The notes under the pieces are model-generated. The model searched no databases. It saw nothing but the letters and a program-made list of their open reading frames with translations, and was not told the origin of the DNA. A stretch of DNA of 64,000 nucleotides, from the NCBI GenBank assembly GCA_025363655.1, contig JANYDK010000084.1:1-64000 (forward strand), read 5' to 3'. Within the stretch, counting starts at the first letter, position 1. Each line of letters opens with the position of its first letter. Position numbers and translations under genes: made by a program. The DNA comes from Deltaproteobacteria bacterium (lineage in GTDB: Bacteria > Myxococcota_A > Polyangia > Polyangiales > JADJMO01). Below, piece after piece: positions 49,782 through 63,098 of the stretch.

Positions 49782-52286
49782 ATGGTGCTCGCGCTACGCG
49801 ACGTCATCCAAAGCCGGCCGGTGCGGGCCGTGCGTGCCCTCCTCTTGCGCGCCGCCGACGCACGCGCGGCCCTCGTCGCACGGGGAAAATCGGACGTTTC
49901 GGCGAAGCCCTCCCGCGCCGAGAAGGTCCGCGGACTCGACGACACGGTGACCATCGCGCGAGATGCGTTCGGCGTTCCCGGAATCTTCGGAACGACGCTC
50001 GCCGACGTCGCCTTCGGGATGGGCTGGGCCTGCGCCGAAGATCGACTCTTCCAAATCGAGCTATTTCGCCGCGCCATGCGGGGTGAGCTGGCGGCGACGT
50101 TCGGCGATCGTGAGGCCGATCCGAAGCGTTCCGGGCGCCTATTCGCGGGGCGCACGTACGTCGATCTCGATGCCTTCTCGCGCGCGCTCGGGCTCCGCGG
50201 GGCGGCCGAGGCGAGCTACGCCGTCTGCAGCACCGAGGGACGCGCCTGGCTCGATGCCTACGCGCGCGGCATCAACGCCTACCTCGCGAGTGGTCGTCGT
50301 CCTCTCGAAATGCTCCTCCTCGACCTCGAGCCCACGCCTTGGACCGGCGCCGATCCGATCCTGATCTCTCGCGGAATCGCCTTTCAGCTCAGTTTTTCCC
50401 ATCGATTCGCCCTCGCCCACGCGCTCGTGCGTGACGCGGTCGGCGGGGAAGGCGACGCCCGCGCCGAGGCACTGCGACCGATTGTCCACCCGTTCACCGC
50501 CACGCGCGGTGGGGCGCTCGGCGACGACGGGCTCGCTCCTCTCGTGGCGACGCTCGAAGTGCTCCGCGCGGTCCTCGGGACGAGCGGCGTGCACCTCGGG
50601 TCGAACGCCTTCGCGGTCGGTCCCTCGCGCGCCGAGAACGGTCGTCCGCTCGTCGCCAGCGATCCGCACATGCCCTTGATGGCGCCCTCCATCTTCTGGG
50701 AAGCGCGCGTGAAGGGCGGGGGGCTCGACGCACGCGGGGTCGCAATTCCAGGCGTTCCCGCGATCGCCATCGGTCAAAATGCGCACGGCGCCTGGGGTGT
50801 CACGGCTGGATGGGGCGACGATGCACAGTTGTATCGCGTCGATCTCGCGCGCCTCCGCGCTGAAGGTCGCCTGCAGACGCGACGAGAGTCGATCGCGGTC
50901 CGCGACGGTGACGATCGACACGTCTCCCTCCACGAATCGCCGCGCGGTCCGCTCATCACGCCCTTCGCCGAAGGTCCCCCGGCGCGAGGTGAATCCGCCG
51001 CGCACGAGCACGGCATCGCGATTCGTTGGTCGGGTCGCGAGGCCAGCCCCGATGGAGACGCCGCGCTCGCGCTCATGCGCGCGCACACCTTCGATGAGCT
51101 GCGCGAGGCTCTTCGGCTGCATACCGCGCCGACGCTCAACTTCGTCTGGGCCGACGACGGCGGCCACATCGGTTGGCAATACGCCGGTCGCATCCCCGTT
51201 CGTCGCGGCAACGAAGACGGCGCGGTCGTCGTCTCCGGGCTCGACATCGTCGACGACACGAACGGCGACGACGCACGCGGCGATCTGGTCGGCTTCGTCC
51301 CCTTCGACGCGCTGCCGTTCGTCCGCGATCCGAAGGACGGCGTCATCGTCTCCGCCAACGTCTGTCCGGTGCCGACGTCGTATCCGCACTTCCTCGGAGA
51401 GCTCTTCGAACCGCCCTTCCGCATGGCGCGCATCCGTGCGCTCCTCGACGCCTACGCCCACTTCGGAAAAATAGGCCTCACCGAGATCGCCGCGATTCAA
51501 CGTGACGCGCGCTCGGCGTGGGCGACGCAGCTCCGTGACGCGCTCTTTTCGGGCCTCGACGACGACGCGCTGGTCTTGCCGACGAGGCGTGGACGCGACG
51601 TCGTGCGGCTCGCCCGCGCTTGGGATGGACATGCCGGGCACGAGAGCGTCGGCGCGACGGCGACCTACGCGCTCTTCGACGCGGTGATGCGGCACGTCTT
51701 CCTCGAGGCGCTCGGCGAAGAAGCTTTCGAGCGCTATTTCGAGCTCCTCAACGCGTCGGCGCTGCCGATGCTCGGCATCTTCGGCGACGGCGACGATCCC
51801 GGCGCTTGGCTCGCAGGGCGCGACCGAGCCGCGCTCGTACGCGACGCCGCGGCGATGGCCGAAGGTGTGCTCCGTCGTCGGCTCGGTGACGATCCGCTGT
51901 CGTGGCGATGGGGCACGCTCCACACGATGACCTTCGACAACGCGCTCGCCTCCGCCGCCGACGGCACGCTCCTCGGCCCCGGCGTCCGCGCGATCGCCTC
52001 TCCGGGACCGTTCCCCGCGTCCGGCGACGGCACCACGGTCTCGATGGGCGAATTCGAAATCGGCGGTGATTTCCAGGTCCGTGTCGCGCCGGCGATGCGC
52101 ACCGTGATGATCGCCGGCGTCCCTTCCGGGGGTCGCATCGTGCTCCCGCCTGGCCAGAGCGGCGATCCGGCGACGCGTCACTATCGCGATCAGGCGAGTC
52201 TCTACGTCGCGGGCGAGCTCCGTGCCGCGTCGTGGGACGAGACCGACTTCCACGACAAACGCGTGCGGCTCGTACGCGAGAGCTGA
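49782..52286 (+). CDS. penicillin acylase family (Ntn) amidohydrolase
   Basis: An 834-residue N-terminal-nucleophile hydrolase that would mature by self-cleavage before Ser274 (HLGSNAFAVG). The A-chain region is residues about 50-250 (GVPGIFGTTLADVAFGMGWA, DRLFQIELFRRAMRG). The B chain carries GRPLVASDPHMPLMAPSIFW, IPGVPAIAIGQNAHGAWGVT, TLNFVWADDGGHIGWQYAGR and SWRWGTLHTMTF, all family motifs. Members cleave amides such as acyl-homoserine lactones, penicillins or lipopeptides. Most are exported, but no convincing signal peptide is seen at this start (MVLALRDVIQSRPVRAVRAL), so it may be cytoplasmic or the helix at 1-25 may anchor it. Substrate unknown. Confidence 0.88.
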   Translation: MVLALRDVIQSRPVRAVRALLLRAADARAALVARGKSDVSAKPSRAEKVRGLDDTVTIARDAFGVPGIFGTTLADVAFGMGWACAEDRLFQIELFRRAMRGELAATFGDREADPKRSGRLFAGRTYVDLDAFSRALGLRGAAEASYAVCSTEGRAWLDAYARGINAYLASGRRPLEMLLLDLEPTPWTGADPILISRGIAFQLSFSHRFALAHALVRDAVGGEGDARAEALRPIVHPFTATRGGALGDDGLAPLVATLEVLRAVLGTSGVHLGSNAFAVGPSRAENGRPLVASDPHMPLMAPSIFWEARVKGGGLDARGVAIPGVPAIAIGQNAHGAWGVTAGWGDDAQLYRVDLARLRAEGRLQTRRESIAVRDGDDRHVSLHESPRGPLITPFAEGPPARGESAAHEHGIAIRWSGREASPDGDAALALMRAHTFDELREALRLHTAPTLNFVWADDGGHIGWQYAGRIPVRRGNEDGAVVVSGLDIVDDTNGDDARGDLVGFVPFDALPFVRDPKDGVIVSANVCPVPTSYPHFLGELFEPPFRMARIRALLDAYAHFGKIGLTEIAAIQRDARSAWATQLRDALFSGLDDDALVLPTRRGRDVVRLARAWDGHAGHESVGATATYALFDAVMRHVFLEALGEEAFERYFELLNASALPMLGIFGDGDDPGAWLAGRDRAALVRDAAAMAEGVLRRRLGDDPLSWRWGTLHTMTFDNALASAADGTLLGPGVRAIASPGPFPASGDGTTVSMGEFEIGGDFQVRVAPAMRTVMIAGVPSGGRIVLPPGQSGDPATRHYRDQASLYVAGELRAASWDETDFHDKRVRLVRES

Positions 52287-53749: not shown

Positions 53750-54616
53750 TCAGCCCTTCACGCCGCCGGCGGTGAGACCGGACACGATGTTGCGTTGCGC
53801 GAGGTAGAAGAGCGCCATCACCGGCACCGACACCACCAGCGCACCCGCGGCGAATTTTCCCCACGAAGCGCCGTGCTCACCGACGTAGCGCTGGAGCGCG
53901 ACCGGGAGCGTGAACGCGTCTTCGCGCGAGAGCAGCGTCGCCGCGAGGATGAACTCGTTCCATGCGCTCATGAAGGCGAAGAGCGCGGTGACCGCGATCG
54001 CCGGACGCGCGGCGGGCAAGGCGACCCGAAGGAACGCTTGGAAACGTGTCGCCCCGTCGACCTGCGCGGCCTCTTCGAGATCGATGGGAATCGCCTCGAA
54101 CGCCGAGCGCAGCTGCATCACGCAGAAGGGCACCGACGTCGTCGCGTAGACGAGGACCAGCCCCGCGCGCGAGTCGAGGAGGTGCAGCTTTTCGAGGATG
54201 AGATAGAGCGGCACCAAGGTGGCGACGCCGGGGAACATCTGCGTCGCCATCAGCATCCACACGCCGCGATCTTTTCCGACGAAGCGAAAGCGCGCGAGGG
54301 CGTACGCGGCGGGCGTGGCGATGACGATGCCGACGACGGCGGTCGCGAGGGAGACCACGAGCGAGCTCGCCAGCTGCCGACCAAAGAGCCAGGTGCCGGT
54401 GGTGGTGTCGTGGGTGCTCATCACCGCGCGAAAGTTGTCGAGCGACGGCGCAGTGGGAATGGGAAGCACACGCGCCGCCGGTGCATCGCCGGGAGAGAGC
54501 GCGAGCGCGACCACCCAGAGGACCGGATAGAGGGCGACGAGCGTGGCGACGACGAGCACGGCGTGCGTGAGCGCCTCGAGGGCGAGGCTGGGACCACGAA
54601 CGCGCGCTGTCGACAT
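53750..54616 (-). CDS. carbohydrate ABC transporter permease, MalG family
   Basis: A 288-residue inner-membrane permease with six helices (first LTHAVLVVATLVALYPVLWV). The EAA loop that docks on the ATPase is LEEAAQVDGATRFQAFLRVA, and YLILEKLHLLDSRAGLVLVY and YLAQRNIVSGLTAGGVKG are typical of MalG-type subunits. It pairs with the MalE-MalF fusion encoded 1.4 kb upstream on the same strand, beyond an opposite-strand gene. The ATG at 54616 is preferred to the TTG at 54655 because a TAATTT hexamer ends 10 nt before it, giving this gene its own promoter. Confidence 0.9.
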   Translation of the reverse strand: MSTARVRGPSLALEALTHAVLVVATLVALYPVLWVVALALSPGDAPAARVLPIPTAPSLDNFRAVMSTHDTTTGTWLFGRQLASSLVVSLATAVVGIVIATPAAYALARFRFVGKDRGVWMLMATQMFPGVATLVPLYLILEKLHLLDSRAGLVLVYATTSVPFCVMQLRSAFEAIPIDLEEAAQVDGATRFQAFLRVALPAARPAIAVTALFAFMSAWNEFILAATLLSREDAFTLPVALQRYVGEHGASWGKFAAGALVVSVPVMALFYLAQRNIVSGLTAGGVKG

Positions 54617-54626
54617 GTGTTCGCGC

Positions 54627-54632
54627 AAATTA
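54627..54632 (-). promoter_or_regulatory. TAATTT, possible -10 element of malG-like gene
   Basis: On the minus strand TAATTT is followed by 10 nt and the ATG at 54616. It would let the permease gene be transcribed separately from the fusion gene. Confidence 0.42.
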
Positions 54633-54650
54633 GCCGGAATTTCACGGGTT

Positions 54651-54673
54651 GCCAAAGACTCCCGCGCTTCGGC
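54651..54673. repeat. possible degenerate family A hairpin
   Basis: GCCAAAG and CTTCGGC arms separated by nine bases resemble the outer stem of the family A hairpins, with one A-C mismatch and a shortened core. It lies between the divergent malG-like gene and the membrane protein gene. The assignment is weak. Confidence 0.25.
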
Positions 54674-54714
54674 GAGGGAGCATGTGCAGCGGCCTTGTAC
54701 TAATGTCGAGGGCC

Positions 54715-56007
54715 GTGTCGGAGGAGGAGCAAACCGATGACACCGATGGCGCGGCCAGCCCCGACGAGGTCGTCGTCCGCGGTACCAAGGTGCTCGACCG
54801 GCCGTCGGGGGCCATCAACTTCTGGTTCAGCGTCATGCTCGTCGCGCTCGGCGGGGGCATGCTCCTCAATCATTACGGGCTCGCCGTCGTCGCCATTCTC
54901 GCGCTCGCGATGTTGGCGCGCGCTCGCTTCGATCGTCCGCGTCTCGTCGGTGCGCAGTCGGTGCGGCTCTCGGCAAATCGCGAAGGACTCTTCTCCCACG
55001 GCCAGCAGCTCGCGGCGCGGCACGAGATCGTCAGCGGTCTCGTGCTGCCGGTGACGCCGGAAGGACCGACGATCAGGCTGATTCGCAAGCGTCTCCGCGC
55101 ACCCATCGAAATCGCCGTGCCCTCGATCGAGGACGCGCGCGGCCTCCTCCACGCCATGGGCCTCGACGCCAGGCAGACGCGGGTCGCGCTCAAGCTTCCG
55201 TCGGCGACGCGCGGCAAAATCAGCCTGCGGAGCGTCCTCGCGGTGCTGACGGCCACCTTCCTCGGCTCGGCCTTCGTGGCGGGCTGGCTCGCGCTCAGGC
55301 CGATGTGGTGGGTCAGCGCGGGCGCGATTGTCGCGATGCTGCTCAGCCTCTTCGTCATTCCTCTGCTCGCGCTCATTCCCACGACGGTCACCCTCGGCTC
55401 CGACGGGCTGCGCGTGCGTTGGGGGCCGCGTACGAGGGGCGTCCGCTACGTCGACGTCGCTTCCGTCGACGAGCTCGCGACCGGCGTGCGATTGCGGCTG
55501 CGCGCGGGTGGATTCGTCGACATCACGACCGATCGCACGACCACCGACGTCGTGGATTTCCTCGGTCGTTCGTCGCTGCGCGTCCACGACGTGCTCATCG
55601 AACGCATCCATCAGGCGATGGCCGGTGGGAGCGACGAAGCCGAGCTCTCGCTGGCTCTCGCGCCGCGCGGGCGAGATGGGAGGGCGTGGCTCGAGGGGTT
55701 GCGCGTCCTTCCGCGTCGCGCTGAAGGGTTTCGCGACGTACCGATCACCGAGGAGGCGCTCTTGCGTGCCGTGGAGAATCCGCTCGCTTCGCAGAGCACT
55801 CGTGCGGCCGCGGCGGCTGCCTTGTCGGGGAGCTCGGGGAGCCGGGCGCCGGTGCGTCAACGGTTGCGAATCGCCGCCGACTCGGTGGTCTCGCCGCCGC
55901 TCCGCCTGGCCCTGGTCGCGGCGGCGAGCGACGACGATGCGGCGCTCGAAGAAGCGCTCGACGAGCTGCAGCGCGCCGAGCTCACGAACAATATAACCAA
56001 TCTATAA
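54715..56007 (+). CDS. membrane protein with PH-like domain, unknown function
   Basis: A 430-residue protein with two pairs of membrane helices: INFWFSVMLVALGGGML with GLAVVAILALAML, and VLTATFLGSAFVAGWLAL with WWVSAGAIVAMLLSLFVIPL. A beta domain after the second pair (TVTLGSDGLRVRWGPRTRGV, GVRLRLRAGGFVDITTDRTT) looks like a bacterial PH-type fold, and the C-terminal 130 residues are helical. The GTG at 54715 is preferred over the ATG at 54703 because a TACTAA element lies 11 nt upstream of it; either is possible. It sits on the opposite strand between the two maltose-type permease genes and is probably unrelated to them. Confidence 0.65.
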   Translation: MSEEEQTDDTDGAASPDEVVVRGTKVLDRPSGAINFWFSVMLVALGGGMLLNHYGLAVVAILALAMLARARFDRPRLVGAQSVRLSANREGLFSHGQQLAARHEIVSGLVLPVTPEGPTIRLIRKRLRAPIEIAVPSIEDARGLLHAMGLDARQTRVALKLPSATRGKISLRSVLAVLTATFLGSAFVAGWLALRPMWWVSAGAIVAMLLSLFVIPLLALIPTTVTLGSDGLRVRWGPRTRGVRYVDVASVDELATGVRLRLRAGGFVDITTDRTTTDVVDFLGRSSLRVHDVLIERIHQAMAGGSDEAELSLALAPRGRDGRAWLEGLRVLPRRAEGFRDVPITEEALLRAVENPLASQSTRAAAAAALSGSSGSRAPVRQRLRIAADSVVSPPLRLALVAAASDDDAALEEALDELQRAELTNNITNL

Positions 56008-56012: not shown

Positions 56013-58244
56013 CTATGCTTCACTCCGACGCCGCAAGAGCCGGGTCGTCGTCACCAGCAGCACGAAGATGAGCACCGCATAGGCGCTCGCGTATCCGTAC
56101 TGCGCTTGCCGCGTGAAGGCCCAGCGATAGGCCTCGGAGACGAGGATCTCGGTGCGTCCGTCGGGCTCGCCGCCGCTGACGAGGAAGACGACGTTGAACA
56201 TGTTGAAGGTCCACACCGCGCCGAGGACGACGGCGGGCGCGAGCGTCGGCTTCAAGAGCGGCATCGTCACGCGCCAGAAGCGCTGCCACGGCGTCGCCCC
56301 GTCGACCTCGGCGGCCTCGAGCACTTCCTTCGGAATGGCGGCGAGCGCGCCGAGCGTGACCACCATCATGAAGGGGAAGCCGAGCCAGACGTTGGTCGCG
56401 ACGTTGGCCGTGAACGCGGTCGCGAAGCTGGAAAACCAGCTGATTTTCTCGACATGAAAGACGCCGAGGATGGCGTTGATGGCGCCGAGCTGACGGTGGA
56501 ACATTCCCTTCCAAGCGAGCGCCGAGACGTACGAAGGGACGGCCCAAGGCACGATGAGGAGCACGCGATAGAGGCCCTTGAGCTTGAGCGTCGGCCTCGA
56601 GAGCAGGAGCGCGAGCGTGACGCCGAGGAAGAGGTGGAGCGCGAGGTTGCACGCCGTCCAGAGGATGGTGACGAGGAGCACCGCGTAGAACGAGCCACTC
56701 GCGAGGAGCTCGCCGCCTCGGGCCGTGAGAATTTCACGGTAGTTGCCGAAGCCGACGTAGCGCATCTCGCCGGTGCGTCCGGCATAGAGCGAGGTGGTGG
56801 CGCCGAGGACGAGCGGGACGATGACGAGCAGCGCGACGATGACGACCGCGTGCGTGACGTACGCATAGGCCGGGGCCGAGCGGCGCACGGCCGTGCGGAA
56901 GGCCGGATCGCGCACCGCGACGACGGCGCGGAAGGCGACGTAGAGGGCGAGCGCGCCGAGGATGACGAGCAAGATGCGTGGGTCGCGCGTTCCTGGGAGT
57001 GGTCGCGTGACGTCGGCGTAGCGATGCGCCGCTTCGGCGATGGCATCGGCCGGCGAGAGATCGTGGCGCAGTACTTTTTGAATCGCGCGCGTCGTCGGCT
57101 CCCACGCGGCGCGCATGGCCGGGCTCGTTGGCATCGGGATGGCATCACGCGCGGCCGCTGCGAAGCCGGCGAGGAACGGATCGGCGGCGAGGCTCGCGTC
57201 GTCCCAAGCCGCACGCGTGGCCACGACTTGTCGTCCGACCTTCGCGCGAACGATGGCTGCCTCGCGCGAGACGAGCGCATCGAGGAGGGCGTGGGCGAGG
57301 CCGACGTCACGCGGCGCGGGAGCCAGCATCGCCCCTTCTACGGTGAGAAATGGCCGTGATTTTCCGCCTCCTTCATGCACCGGCGGGATCGGCACCACAC
57401 GGTAGGCGAGGCCCTTCGGGAGATCGGCGGCGAGCCAGGGACCGCTGATCGCGGCATCGACTCCACCGGCAGCGCTCCCGGACGAGAAGAGCTGCGTCAC
57501 CAGCGCGCCCGAGGCCTCTTCGGGGACGCTCCCTCGATCGAGCGCGCGAAGGAGCCATTCGAGGGACTGCACCGCCGGCCCATCGGCGAACGCATAACGC
57601 CCCGATGCATCGAGGATCTGCCCGCCGACCGCGTGCAAGAGCGGCGCGTGCATGTACGCGTTGCCCGCTTCGTAGCCGAGGACGGTCTTGCCGCTGTTGG
57701 TGCCGAAGAGCGCATCCAGCGAGGTCGGTGAAGTGGGCGACGTTCCATCGAGCCACGTCGGCGCGCGCACGTAGAGCGCTAGACACTTCAGCGACAGAGG
57801 GATCGCGTAGGGCTTTCCGTCGAGCGTCACCGCGGCGCGCGCGACCTCGTCGTAGGCCTCGGCGGAGACGAGCGCAGGCTCGAGCGGCGCGACCAGGCCC
57901 TTGTCGCGATAGTCGCCGAGCCGTTCGTGCGCATCGAGGAAGACGTCGGGCCCGTGCCCATGCGGTATAGCCGCCTCGAGCTTGGAGGCATAGGCATCGA
58001 AGGGAAGTGCGAGCACCTCGACGGTGGCAGCCGGGTGCGCCGCACGAAAGTCGGCGAGGATGAGATCGAGCGCTTCTTGTTCGGCGCCGCGGTACGCGTG
58101 CCAGAGGACGACCTTGTTCGGCTCCGCGAACGCGCGCGAAGGGAAGACGAGGACCAGCAGCGCCGACGCGATCGCGACGAGCGAGAGGACGGACCTTGCC
58201 GCAGAGCGCCTCAGGCCGGACGCGGGTATGTGAGCTCCCCTCAC
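56013..58244 (-). CDS. fused sugar-binding protein and MalF-type ABC permease
   Basis: A 743-residue fusion. A signal sequence (RSVLSLVAIASALLVLVFPS) leads into a solute-binding domain at about residues 40-410 (NKVVLWHAYRGAEQEALDLI, GHGPDVFLDAHERLGDY, KPYAIPLSLKCLALYVRAP), as in MalE. A single helix (about 422-445, ILLVILGALALYVAF) returns the chain to the cytoplasm, then a six-helix MalF-like permease follows with EAA loop VLEAAEVDGATPWQRFWRVT at about 636. The extra helix gives the right topology for a periplasmic binding domain tethered to the channel. The GTG at 58244 is the only suitable start and lies 10 nt from a 12-bp palindrome. Partners: MalG-like 53750 and MalK-like 58843. Confidence 0.9.
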   Translation of the reverse strand: MRGAHIPASGLRRSAARSVLSLVAIASALLVLVFPSRAFAEPNKVVLWHAYRGAEQEALDLILADFRAAHPAATVEVLALPFDAYASKLEAAIPHGHGPDVFLDAHERLGDYRDKGLVAPLEPALVSAEAYDEVARAAVTLDGKPYAIPLSLKCLALYVRAPTWLDGTSPTSPTSLDALFGTNSGKTVLGYEAGNAYMHAPLLHAVGGQILDASGRYAFADGPAVQSLEWLLRALDRGSVPEEASGALVTQLFSSGSAAGGVDAAISGPWLAADLPKGLAYRVVPIPPVHEGGGKSRPFLTVEGAMLAPAPRDVGLAHALLDALVSREAAIVRAKVGRQVVATRAAWDDASLAADPFLAGFAAAARDAIPMPTSPAMRAAWEPTTRAIQKVLRHDLSPADAIAEAAHRYADVTRPLPGTRDPRILLVILGALALYVAFRAVVAVRDPAFRTAVRRSAPAYAYVTHAVVIVALLVIVPLVLGATTSLYAGRTGEMRYVGFGNYREILTARGGELLASGSFYAVLLVTILWTACNLALHLFLGVTLALLLSRPTLKLKGLYRVLLIVPWAVPSYVSALAWKGMFHRQLGAINAILGVFHVEKISWFSSFATAFTANVATNVWLGFPFMMVVTLGALAAIPKEVLEAAEVDGATPWQRFWRVTMPLLKPTLAPAVVLGAVWTFNMFNVVFLVSGGEPDGRTEILVSEAYRWAFTRQAQYGYASAYAVLIFVLLVTTTRLLRRRSEA

Positions 58245-58289: not shown

Positions 58290-58835
58290 ATGAGGCCCAC
58301 GAGATCGTTTTGCGACGCAGTCCGTCATCAGAGGATGCGCGGCGTTTTGCTCGTTCTCGCCTTGGCGTGCGGCTGTCGGCAGAGCGGACGGGAATTGGGG
58401 CCCGATCCGAAGGGGAACGAGAGCGTGAAGCCGTCGCCACCCCCCGCGCCGAGCGCCCCGCCGAAGGGGCCTCCGCTCCAGCTCGTGGTCGCGAACTTGC
58501 CGTCGGACGCCGTCGAGCTGCGGGTGAAGAACGTGAGCGAAGAGCCGGTCTCGCTCGCCGAGGACATCGACCTCCAACACGAGGAGGCGGGCGTGTTCGT
58601 CTCGACCCACTACGAGGTTTGGATCGAGCCAGGATGTCAGCGCGGAAAGAGCGCCACCTGCGTGACCATCTCTCCCGGGGAAGAGCTGCGACCGACCCTC
58701 TGGATGGGCATGTCTTGTGGTGCGTCGTGCCCTTGCCGCGCCAACGTGATGGCGGCTCCTGGCACCTATCGTTTCGTCGTTCGACGCTGCGACGCGACCG
58801 GCTCGGTGACGTCGTCGTCGTTCGTCTGGCCCTAG
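58290..58835 (+). CDS. lipoprotein of unknown function
   Basis: A 181-residue predicted lipoprotein (166 from the alternative ATG at 58335). The signal MRGVLLVLALACGC ends in lipobox LALAC; the longer start adds a basic n-region and has GGGG at ribosome-site spacing. After a Pro/Lys/Gly linker (KPSPPPAPSAPPKGPP) comes a beta-sandwich-like domain (VELRVKNVSEEPVSLAEDID, YRFVVRRCDATGSVTSSSFV) with six Cys, four of them clustered in MSCGASCPCR. It lies on the opposite strand between two genes of the maltose-type system. Function unknown. Confidence 0.72.
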   Translation: MRPTRSFCDAVRHQRMRGVLLVLALACGCRQSGRELGPDPKGNESVKPSPPPAPSAPPKGPPLQLVVANLPSDAVELRVKNVSEEPVSLAEDIDLQHEEAGVFVSTHYEVWIEPGCQRGKSATCVTISPGEELRPTLWMGMSCGASCPCRANVMAAPGTYRFVVRRCDATGSVTSSSFVWP

Positions 58836-58842
58836 CGAAGAC

Positions 58843-59967
<1,125 letters not shown>

Positions 59968-59994
59968 GGGTACTTCTCGCTCTCGTATCGTTTC

Positions 59995-60020
59995 GCCGAA
60001 GATCGCTTCGCGACTTCGGC
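59995..60020. repeat. palindromic hairpin repeat, family A copy 3
   Basis: 26-bp hairpin with arms GCCGAAG / CTTCGGC and inner TCGC / GCGA. Relative to copies 1 and 2 both sides of the stem have changed together (A-T to G-C and T-A to C-G), so pairing is kept. It lies between the alpha-amylase stop and the ATPase start. Similarity to copy 2 continues about 35 bp to the right. Confidence 0.75.
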
Positions 60021-60062
60021 CGCTCGCTGTATCTCGCCTCTGGCTCGGTCCGCTCGCATGAT

Positions 60063-61904
60063 TCACTTCTTCCGCAAGAGGACGACGGCGTCGTGGGGCC
60101 CGAGCTCGACGTTGAGCTGGCCGCCAGCACCGACGACGAAGGCGCGCGCGTCTTTGGTCGCCAGCGCGTCGACGAGCTGCGTCCCCGAGGCCGCGCCCAC
60201 GGTCATCGGCGTGGTGCCGGAAACCGTGGCCGATTTGTGATCGGCCGCGGTGTTGAGGACGACGAGCGCGTAGTCACCCTCGGGGGTCGATCGTTCGAAG
60301 GCGACGATGCCGCCGTCGGGCTCGCTCGCCTTCTTGTCCGTCGTCCAGACGAACTTGATGGCGCCACGCGAGATCGCGCGCGAGCTCTTGCGCACGTCGG
60401 CGAGGCGACGGATGAGCTGGAAGGTGTCGCCGCCGGTGGCGAAGTTGGTCGGCGAGAGATCTTCGCGATTGGCGGGGTCGTTGCCACCGGTGAAGTCTTG
60501 TTCGGTTCCGTAATAGATGCATGGAATGCCATCTTCCGTGAGGAGGAGCACGAGCGCGTCGTGGAGCACGCTCTTGGCATCCGTGCGTCCGGCGACGGCG
60601 GCTTGCCAGAGGTAACGACCGACGTCGTGGTTGTCGAGGAAGTTCACGTGCAAGTCGGCGGGCGCGACACCGAGGCCGCTCTCTTCCGGCTTCGTCGACC
60701 AGTTGGCGCGCCGCTCGGTCCAACGATTCTCGATGTTCTTGGTCGGCGCGCCGCCGATCAAGACGTCACGATAAACCTGGAAATACTGGGGAAAATCGAA
60801 GAGGCCGTCGAGCTCCTTGTCATGCGTGTAGCTGCCGACGAGCTCGTCTTTGCCGTCGAAGACCTCGCCGAACATGAGGAACTTGTTCTTGCCGAGGCTC
60901 GCTGCCTTGGCGCGGATGCGGCGACCGAACTCTTGCCAGAAGGGATGGTCGACGTGCTTGACGGTGTCGATGCGGAAGCCGTCGAGATCTGCGAGCTCGA
61001 TCCACTTGGCGTACGCCTCGCTCATCGCGTCGACGACCTCGGCGTTCTCGGTGGCGAGGTCTTTGAGCCCGCCGGGAAAGTCGCCGAACAGAGTCTGTTC
61101 GCGGCCGTCGGGGGGATTGTCGTAGTTGATGATGCGCCCGCGTCGATGGTAGTTGGCAGGGTTGGCGAGGCGACCGTCGGATGGCGCCAAGCGGTTGATG
61201 GTCGCGTCGTGGAAGAACATGATCGGCGCCGGGCCGGCGATGCCGAGCGAGGTCCACGACTGCACGCCGCCACCCTCGTAGTCGGGATCGTATTCGGTGA
61301 TGTGAATCGTCGGCGAGGTGCTTTTTCCCGTCGGATCGACGCCGCCGCGCACGTCCTCGTCGGGACGCCCGTTCATGTTGATGTCGTAATAGAAGAGCTG
61401 CCCCATGTGGTTGGTGACGATGTCGAGCACCACTTTGATGTTGCGAGCGTGCGCGCGTCCGACCAAGTCGCGGAGGTCACTCAAGTTGCCGAAGTGGGGA
61501 TTGAGCGCGAAGGGGTCTTGCGTCCAATATCCGTGGTAGCTGTCGATGCCAGCGTCGGTCTCGACGTTCTTCACTATCGGAGAAATCCACAGCGCAGTGA
61601 CGCCGAGGGCTTGCACGTAGTCGAGGTGATCGGCGAGGCCCTTCCAGTCGCCACCGTGATAGCGCGCCGGCGCGGCGTGATCGACTCGGTAGTCGTTGGA
61701 GACGTCGCCGTCGGCGAAGCGGTCGATCAGCACCTGGTAGATGATCTCGTCGCGCCAGTCGTCGATCTTGGCGGCGATGCTCTGCGTCGGCGGCGCCGGC
61801 GAGACGTCGACGCACGACGACTGCGAGGCACTCAGCCCCAACGTGACGACCGTGAGGAGAAGCGCACTTCCCACCGAGCCGAGCCGACGCGACCGACGAC
61901 GCAT
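60063..61904 (-). CDS. secreted alpha-amylase family glycosidase (GH13)
   Basis: A 613-residue GH13 enzyme that cleaves alpha-1,4-glucans. An N-terminal basic signal (GSALLLTVVTLGLSASQSSC) precedes the mature chain; the Cys could be a lipid site but the -3 residue is atypical. Conserved regions: I DIVTNHMGQ, II DGFRIDTVKHVD with the nucleophile Asp, III MFGEVFDG with the acid/base Glu, IV FLDNHDVGR with the transition-state Asp. CSRYHGGDWKGL-like entry sequence ARYHGGDWKGLADHLDYVQA is typical of cyclomaltodextrinase/amylase subfamilies. The C-terminal beta domain is complete. It is first in the minus-strand series that continues with the MalK-like ATPase, so it likely supplies maltodextrins to that importer. 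Confidence 0.92.
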   Translation of the reverse strand: MRRRSRRLGSVGSALLLTVVTLGLSASQSSCVDVSPAPPTQSIAAKIDDWRDEIIYQVLIDRFADGDVSNDYRVDHAAPARYHGGDWKGLADHLDYVQALGVTALWISPIVKNVETDAGIDSYHGYWTQDPFALNPHFGNLSDLRDLVGRAHARNIKVVLDIVTNHMGQLFYYDINMNGRPDEDVRGGVDPTGKSTSPTIHITEYDPDYEGGGVQSWTSLGIAGPAPIMFFHDATINRLAPSDGRLANPANYHRRGRIINYDNPPDGREQTLFGDFPGGLKDLATENAEVVDAMSEAYAKWIELADLDGFRIDTVKHVDHPFWQEFGRRIRAKAASLGKNKFLMFGEVFDGKDELVGSYTHDKELDGLFDFPQYFQVYRDVLIGGAPTKNIENRWTERRANWSTKPEESGLGVAPADLHVNFLDNHDVGRYLWQAAVAGRTDAKSVLHDALVLLLTEDGIPCIYYGTEQDFTGGNDPANREDLSPTNFATGGDTFQLIRRLADVRKSSRAISRGAIKFVWTTDKKASEPDGGIVAFERSTPEGDYALVVLNTAADHKSATVSGTTPMTVGAASGTQLVDALATKDARAFVVGAGGQLNVELGPHDAVVLLRKK

Positions 61905-62018
61905 TCGGCAAATATCCCACGCCCGAGGCGGCTCTGGAAGGGTAAGCGTAACGCAGGTCAGAGGTACGTCCGTGCTGGCTGTTTTTCTCGGGTGAAAAGT
62001 GCGGTAGTCCGTGCATCC

Positions 62019-63098
62019 ATGCGTGGTCCTTTCGCCGTCGTCGCCTTGACTTGCCTCGCTCTCGGCTGTCGCAAGAGCGCGCCTCCCAGCGACGGGACCC
62101 CGACGCCGGCGAGCGCGACGGTGATTCCTTCGAATGCGAGTGCGACCAGCGCGACGCCGGGCTCGCTCGGGGCGCTCCTTTCGGCGAGCAGGGTTCCGCG
62201 TCCACCCGGTGACCTCGCCAAGGTGAAGCTCGGCGGCACCGAGGAAGAAGCGAAGAAGGCTGCGCCCGAGGTGATGAGCGCGCTCGGCTACCACCCGGGG
62301 GGTCTCCGCGACGTGACGGCGTGGGTCCACGTCGACGACTCGAGCAAGCGCGTCGTCTCCATTCGGCTGGTGATCCTCTCTTCGATCACCGACGTCCTCG
62401 CGTTCGTCCGCGGTGCCTGGGGCGACGCCCAAATCGCAGCCGATCCGGTGTTGCAGCGCTCGGAATACTTTTGGTTCGATCCCGCGGGTGGCATTCGTGC
62501 GCGCGTCGATCCGGGCATCGCCGACGACACCTCACTCGTCTTCGAGGCCTATCTTCCGACCGAGAAACTGCTCGGCATCTCGGGCGTGCCCGTCGTGAGC
62601 CCGGCGCAGTTCGGCTTCGAGACACGCCCGCTCCTCGGGAGCAGCCTCGACGAGCTGAAGGCCACCTTCGGCAGCGCGGTCGTCGAGGAGTCGGCGGCCG
62701 AAGCCGAGGCGACGCAGGAGAAGATCGGCGTCGTCGTCGGCGATCCGAAGTTGAAAGAGAAGCTCGGTCCTGCGCAGGCGAGCGTTCATCTCGAGCTCCC
62801 GCCGACCGAATACGAGGCGACCTTCACCTGGGTGAACGTCGACTTCGACTCCGCGGGAAAGGTGAAGTCGTTCGATTTTCCCCTCTCCTACGAAGACTAC
62901 CCAGCCTTCCAGGCCATTTCGCTGGCGCTGTTGAAGAAGAAACTGGGCGAGCCGAAGACCGAGAAAGACCTGCTCGATCGCGAGGTGCTCGTCTTCGGCG
63001 TCGCCAGCGCTCCCGGAAAGGGGCCGAAGATCACCGTCGCCGACGACGACATCGTCCACGCCTGGCGCGTGCGCGTCACGCGGGATTGGCTTCGGTGA
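62019..63098 (+). CDS. lipoprotein of unknown function
   Basis: A 359-residue predicted lipoprotein: MRGPFAVVALTCLALGC with lipobox LALGC, then a Ser/Thr/Ala/Pro tether of about 45 residues and a globular part with two similar segments (VSIRLVILSSITDVLAFVRG and VKSFDFPLSYEDYPAFQAIS are the matching strand-helix units). The residues after them (RSEYFWFDPAGGIRARVDPG, ATFTWVNVDFDSAGKV) also correspond, so the domain may be a tandem duplication. No catalytic motif is seen. It is divergent from the amylase gene across 114 bp that hold nothing else recognisable. Confidence 0.75.
   Translation: MRGPFAVVALTCLALGCRKSAPPSDGTPTPASATVIPSNASATSATPGSLGALLSASRVPRPPGDLAKVKLGGTEEEAKKAAPEVMSALGYHPGGLRDVTAWVHVDDSSKRVVSIRLVILSSITDVLAFVRGAWGDAQIAADPVLQRSEYFWFDPAGGIRARVDPGIADDTSLVFEAYLPTEKLLGISGVPVVSPAQFGFETRPLLGSSLDELKATFGSAVVEESAAEAEATQEKIGVVVGDPKLKEKLGPAQASVHLELPPTEYEATFTWVNVDFDSAGKVKSFDFPLSYEDYPAFQAISLALLKKKLGEPKTEKDLLDREVLVFGVASAPGKGPKITVADDDIVHAWRVRVTRDWLR

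Follow-up and report, generated by a model that had tools for sequence, protein, structure and literature searches.

In E. coli MalEFGK2, the binding protein MalE is encoded by a separate gene, and the P2 periplasmic loop of MalF, between TM3 and TM4, contacts MalE. The split state is general in this transporter family (CUT1/MalF type). Both TM1 and TM2 of E. coli MalF precede the core (PMC3654945). In other families, binding domains are covalently linked to the permease. GlnP carries two of them (PMC8025302), and the permeases of GlnPQ and OpuA are homodimers equipped with two or four binding domains. The Mycoplasma protein MMSYN1_0195 (NCBIfam NF043073), a member of the polyamine family, also combines permease and binding domain in one chain. 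A fused MalE-MalF is already known as well: Licht et al. 2019 (Res Microbiol 170:1-12, doi 10.1016/j.resmic.2018.08.006) is cited in PMC7756565, PMC9045158 and PMC7060353 for a maltose/maltodextrin transporter in which a single MalE domain is fused to MalF. To this, the present analysis makes modest additions, namely the breadth of the fusion in the phylum, a single divide between fused and split proteins, the origin of the tethering helix and a variant with two extra helices. The characterised transporter is reportedly that of Bdellovibrio, and we take the PDB entry 6ffl, titled as the maltose/maltodextrin-binding domain MalE from Bdellovibrio bacteriovorus, to belong to the same study.

The fusion described here was found in the window, i.e. 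the whole 64,000-nucleotide stretch of DNA that was analysed. It is encoded on the minus strand as a single frame of 743 residues plus stop; the plus strand of this interval is not open in the same frame. The relevant features are the following:

53750..54655, minus strand: malG, partner permease (Pfam, NCBIfam)
56013..58244, minus strand: malE-malF fusion gene, 743 residues, GTG at 58244 (frame, Pfam, NCBIfam, AlphaFold2)
58125..58244, minus strand: signal peptide, residues 1-40 (hydropathy)
57012..58124, minus strand: MalE-type maltodextrin-binding domain, residues 41-411 (Pfam, alignments, fold matches)
56979..57011, minus strand: linker, residues 412-422 (AlphaFold2; near-constant domain-to-core spacing among relatives)
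56910..56978, minus strand: tether membrane helix, residues 423-445 (hydropathy, AlphaFold2; in the position that a pre-core helix has in split MalF relatives and TM2 has in E. coli MalF)
56016..56909, minus strand: MalF permease, residues 446-743, no P2 loop (EAA loop EAAEVDGA, residues 643-650, intact)
58843..60066, minus strand: malK/ugpC-type ATPase with an OB_MalK domain at residues 274-327 (Pfam, NCBIfam)
60063..62432, minus strand: alpha-amylase family protein (Pfam, NCBIfam)

The start codon of malE-malF is uncertain because no clear ribosome-binding site precedes the GTG at 58244. The true start of the alpha-amylase family protein probably lies further in, with the catalytic domain beginning at about residue 200.

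The preliminary description of this DNA had read the frame as a binding protein and a permease in one chain, and a domain search of all 743 residues recovered both parts. Pfam matches that exceed the curated cut-offs cover residues 56-330 (SBP_bac_8/SBP_bac_1) and residues 541-736 (BPD_transp_1). The best NCBIfam models for the first and second half are MalE (residues 23-408, E 1e-28) and MalF (residues 496-732, E 6e-52). Both stay under their equivalog cut-offs, the MalF score being 177 bits against a cut-off of 392 bits. Hydropathy places a signal-type helix at residues 18-36, followed by membrane segments at 424-442 and 466-484 and further membrane regions after these. The signal peptidase I site, read by eye from the sequence and not by a program, probably lies between AFA and EP. 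In the AlphaFold2 model, which was built on 54 relatives (mean pLDDT 86.5, pTM 0.83), the last helix of the binding domain (398-412) is followed by about 10 linker residues, the membrane helix (423-445) and the permease. The earlier placement of the binding domain on the outside is supported.

Both components were compared with E. coli MalEFGK2. In a profile alignment, residues 11-411 span the whole of MalE, up to its last residue (MalE 396 aligned to fusion 411), and the remainder spans MalF, interrupted by a single long gap where MalF has its P2 loop. This loop of enterobacterial-type MalF is absent from the fusion, and so is TM1. The permease core and its coupling loop are shared, with E643, A644, A645, D648, G649 and A650 invariant or nearly so among the 54 relatives, as are the MalG and MalK partners. 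Both marks of a CUT1 system are present, i.e. a BPD_transp_1 permease with an EAA loop and, nearby, a MalK-type ATPase with an OB domain. The Mycoplasma family NF043073 matches only the permease part of the fusion, and weakly (E 2.7e-5).

Residues 41-413 of the model match maltodextrin-binding proteins, with Z 41.7 to 2gha_B (2.3 A over 357 residues), and Z 39.8 was obtained for MalE of the E. coli transporter complex (3puy_E). In fold and sequence, the binding domain is nearest to maltodextrin/cyclodextrin-binding proteins. The Bdellovibrio domain 6ffl shares the maltodextrin-binding fold (Z 40.4), but comes from another phylum and is about 22% identical; it is not among the top sequence matches of the window binding domain or of the two-extra-helix variants discussed below.

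The sugar-binding residues of MalE are largely conserved, but other sugar-site residues differ from those of E. coli. The MalE sugar contacts are presumably D65, R66, W230 and W340, with E111 given in the same numbering. The alignment puts E107, R108, W270 and W381 of the fusion at the four contacts and an invariant K153 at the position of E111. For the polar sugar contacts of E. coli MalF, which we take to be Y383, S433, N437 and N440, the fusion has F625, G675, T679 and M682. N681 and N684 are invariant across the fused set. Given K153 and the changed MalF site, the fusion may bind a sugar other than maltose, or bind it in another way than the E. coli system does, and on alignment evidence the substrate should best be called maltodextrin-type rather than proven maltose.

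The fusion is widespread. A match was found in 246 of the 379 sampled Myxococcota genomes, and by hand count one frame runs across both domains in about 139 of the 379, a number that includes two genomes (G205 and G279) each showing one stop. In a second genome collection, all 80 loci that were kept are fused, including those of Sorangium cellulosum So0157-2, Minicystis rosea and Polyangium strains. In other Myxococcota families, malE and malF are separate and the gene order is unchanged. The homologues are thus not consistently separate, and the layout, which had been thought uncommon for this type of MalF, proved to be neither rare nor without a previously characterised counterpart. Rather than one predator's oddity, the fused maltose importer with one binding domain is the standard form in much of Myxococcota. 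Found beside split-gene relatives, it offers a natural comparison for the benefit of surplus free binding protein and for the cost or gain of a tether.

Among the relatives, malK, malE-malF and malG are nearly always tightly packed on one strand. MalG lies on the strand of the fusion in all 123 fused loci with a MalG match, MalK in 110 of 110, and an amylase family gene, where found, in 27 of 29. In some loci MalG seemed to be set off by a gap of about 1.7 kb, which was dismissed as an artefact of the distance formula where genes overlap. In genome G330 (L214:4239-5999, minus strand), the genes upstream of malK include the amylase and a frame whose product resembles, on reading, a sugar porin of the outer membrane.

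FastTree phylogenies were built from the permease core by itself and from the core combined with MalG and MalK; in these, all fused proteins group with one another and separately from the split proteins (support 0.95-0.96). In a mixture-model tree, the split proteins form one side of a branch (99), with an unsure root because E. coli sits on a long branch. When the fused proteins were constrained to be together, the likelihood was above that of the free tree by 12.2 (p-AU 0.75). From these trees and the constraint test, one change between the split and fused states is enough. As the split state is the general one in this transporter family, the direction is taken to be fusion and not fission.

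The preliminary description also regarded the membrane helix between the two domains as an addition, made to solve a problem of topology. This idea was abandoned, since nearly all split-gene MalF relatives carry a hydrophobic pre-core helix at a matching distance. It precedes the first core helix by a median of 43 residues in 129 fused loci and of 40 in 35 split or contig-cut relatives, and TM2 takes this place in E. coli MalF. The tether helix was therefore probably inherited; this reading concerns position and spacing, sequence homology of the helix not being proven. The simplest reading of the change is that the binding protein was joined ahead of an existing outside-to-inside helix and that everything upstream was lost. 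In the split Myxococcota proteins (L154-L164, L176-L197), MalF has a long N-terminal part that comprises TM1, a soluble domain of about 130-190 residues and two to three helices. It is exactly this part that the fused lineage lacks. Searches with the N-terminal part of split MalF returned no Pfam family and, by sequence, no solved structure (best E 0.34). It could be imagined as a docking domain that keeps MalE near the channel, much as the E. coli P2 loop does, with the covalent tether as its replacement, an idea that we consider rather doubtful.

Taken together, the protein is very probably the MalF subunit of a maltose/maltodextrin-type CUT1 ABC importer with MalE covalently attached at its N-terminus, its function as a transporter being deduced from sequence. 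The signal peptide would export the binding domain, and the tether helix would then cross from periplasm to cytoplasm and lead into an ordinary MalF core, which would pair with MalG and two copies of MalK. As in the transporter of Licht et al. 2019, as it is presented by the papers citing that work, one polypeptide holds a single MalE domain and the MalF permease. The covalent link as such is shared with GlnPQ and OpuA; in contrast to these homodimeric systems, a MalF-MalG heterodimer is expected here. MalG and MalK are encoded as separate subunits and the fusion contains one binding domain, and the earlier expectation of one binding domain per transporter holds as a deduction from this anatomy. 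Each MalF-MalG-MalK2 complex would have exactly one binding domain, unable to diffuse off and always within reach, and would not rely on a surplus of free binding protein. The substrate would be a linear alpha-glucan freed by the neighbouring amylase.

Other explanations have to be weighed against this reading. As malE and malF are separate in other Myxococcota, a sequencing or assembly error might have removed the stop codon between two genes. Such an error is hardly conceivable and can be ruled out for practical purposes: the single frame recurs in both genome collections, the fused proteins group together in the trees, and the short spacing between binding domain and core is kept in 126 of 129 fused loci. 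It is also very unlikely that the fused protein is cut in vivo, releasing a binding domain that works unattached in the periplasm. Most relatives have a proline-rich linker, but the sequence bears no sign of a cleavage site, the helix-tethered domain has been preserved across a long evolutionary distance, and a fused relative has, by the accounts in citing papers, been characterised.

The same architecture might instead serve a substrate that is no maltodextrin, such as a modified sugar or a different oligosaccharide. The lysine at the position of MalE E111 and the altered MalF site would fit this alternative. It is nevertheless rather improbable, given the nearest relatives of the binding domain in fold and sequence and the amylase family gene that accompanies the fusion on the same strand in nearly all loci having one. 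A maltodextrin-type importer with a tethered MalE is the preferred reading.

The genome was also searched for a separate malE. Other SBP_bac_1 matches were found on two contigs (C19 and C116), each adjoining its own permease pair, and a search with SBP_bac_8 added one weak match only, under the cut-off. No unpartnered SBP_bac_1/8 protein was seen in the assembly, which is 96% complete.

The gene set of the window is less compact than that of its relatives. Between malK and malE-malF, a small lipoprotein-like frame without a Pfam match lies on the plus strand (58332-58835); this gap is not present in the close relatives checked. A second plus-strand frame (54706-56007) of about 430 residues, partly hydrophobic, membrane-protein-like and likewise without a Pfam match, separates malE-malF from malG, unlike in nearly all relatives, where malG follows directly. 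These opposite-strand frames break up the gene set, and joint transcription is therefore not assured. Beyond malG, a penicillin amidase family gene is found on the plus strand (49782-52286, Pfam E 1e-161).

A variant of the fusion was observed in three relatives (L165:5355-7787, L166:4757-7381 and L175:2875-5493), which possess a two-helix hairpin just ahead of the last helix of the binding domain. An early view of this three-helix form as the older one, which would have kept helices of MalF, was given up. The last helix of the binding domain (LREAQTRIEV...) that precedes the third helix here is the one found in the window type, and the hairpin was therefore inserted there. In the trees, the three proteins group inside or beside the window type, and the form with two extra helices is a later variant. 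In this variant, the last helix of the binding domain would fall between two membrane segments.
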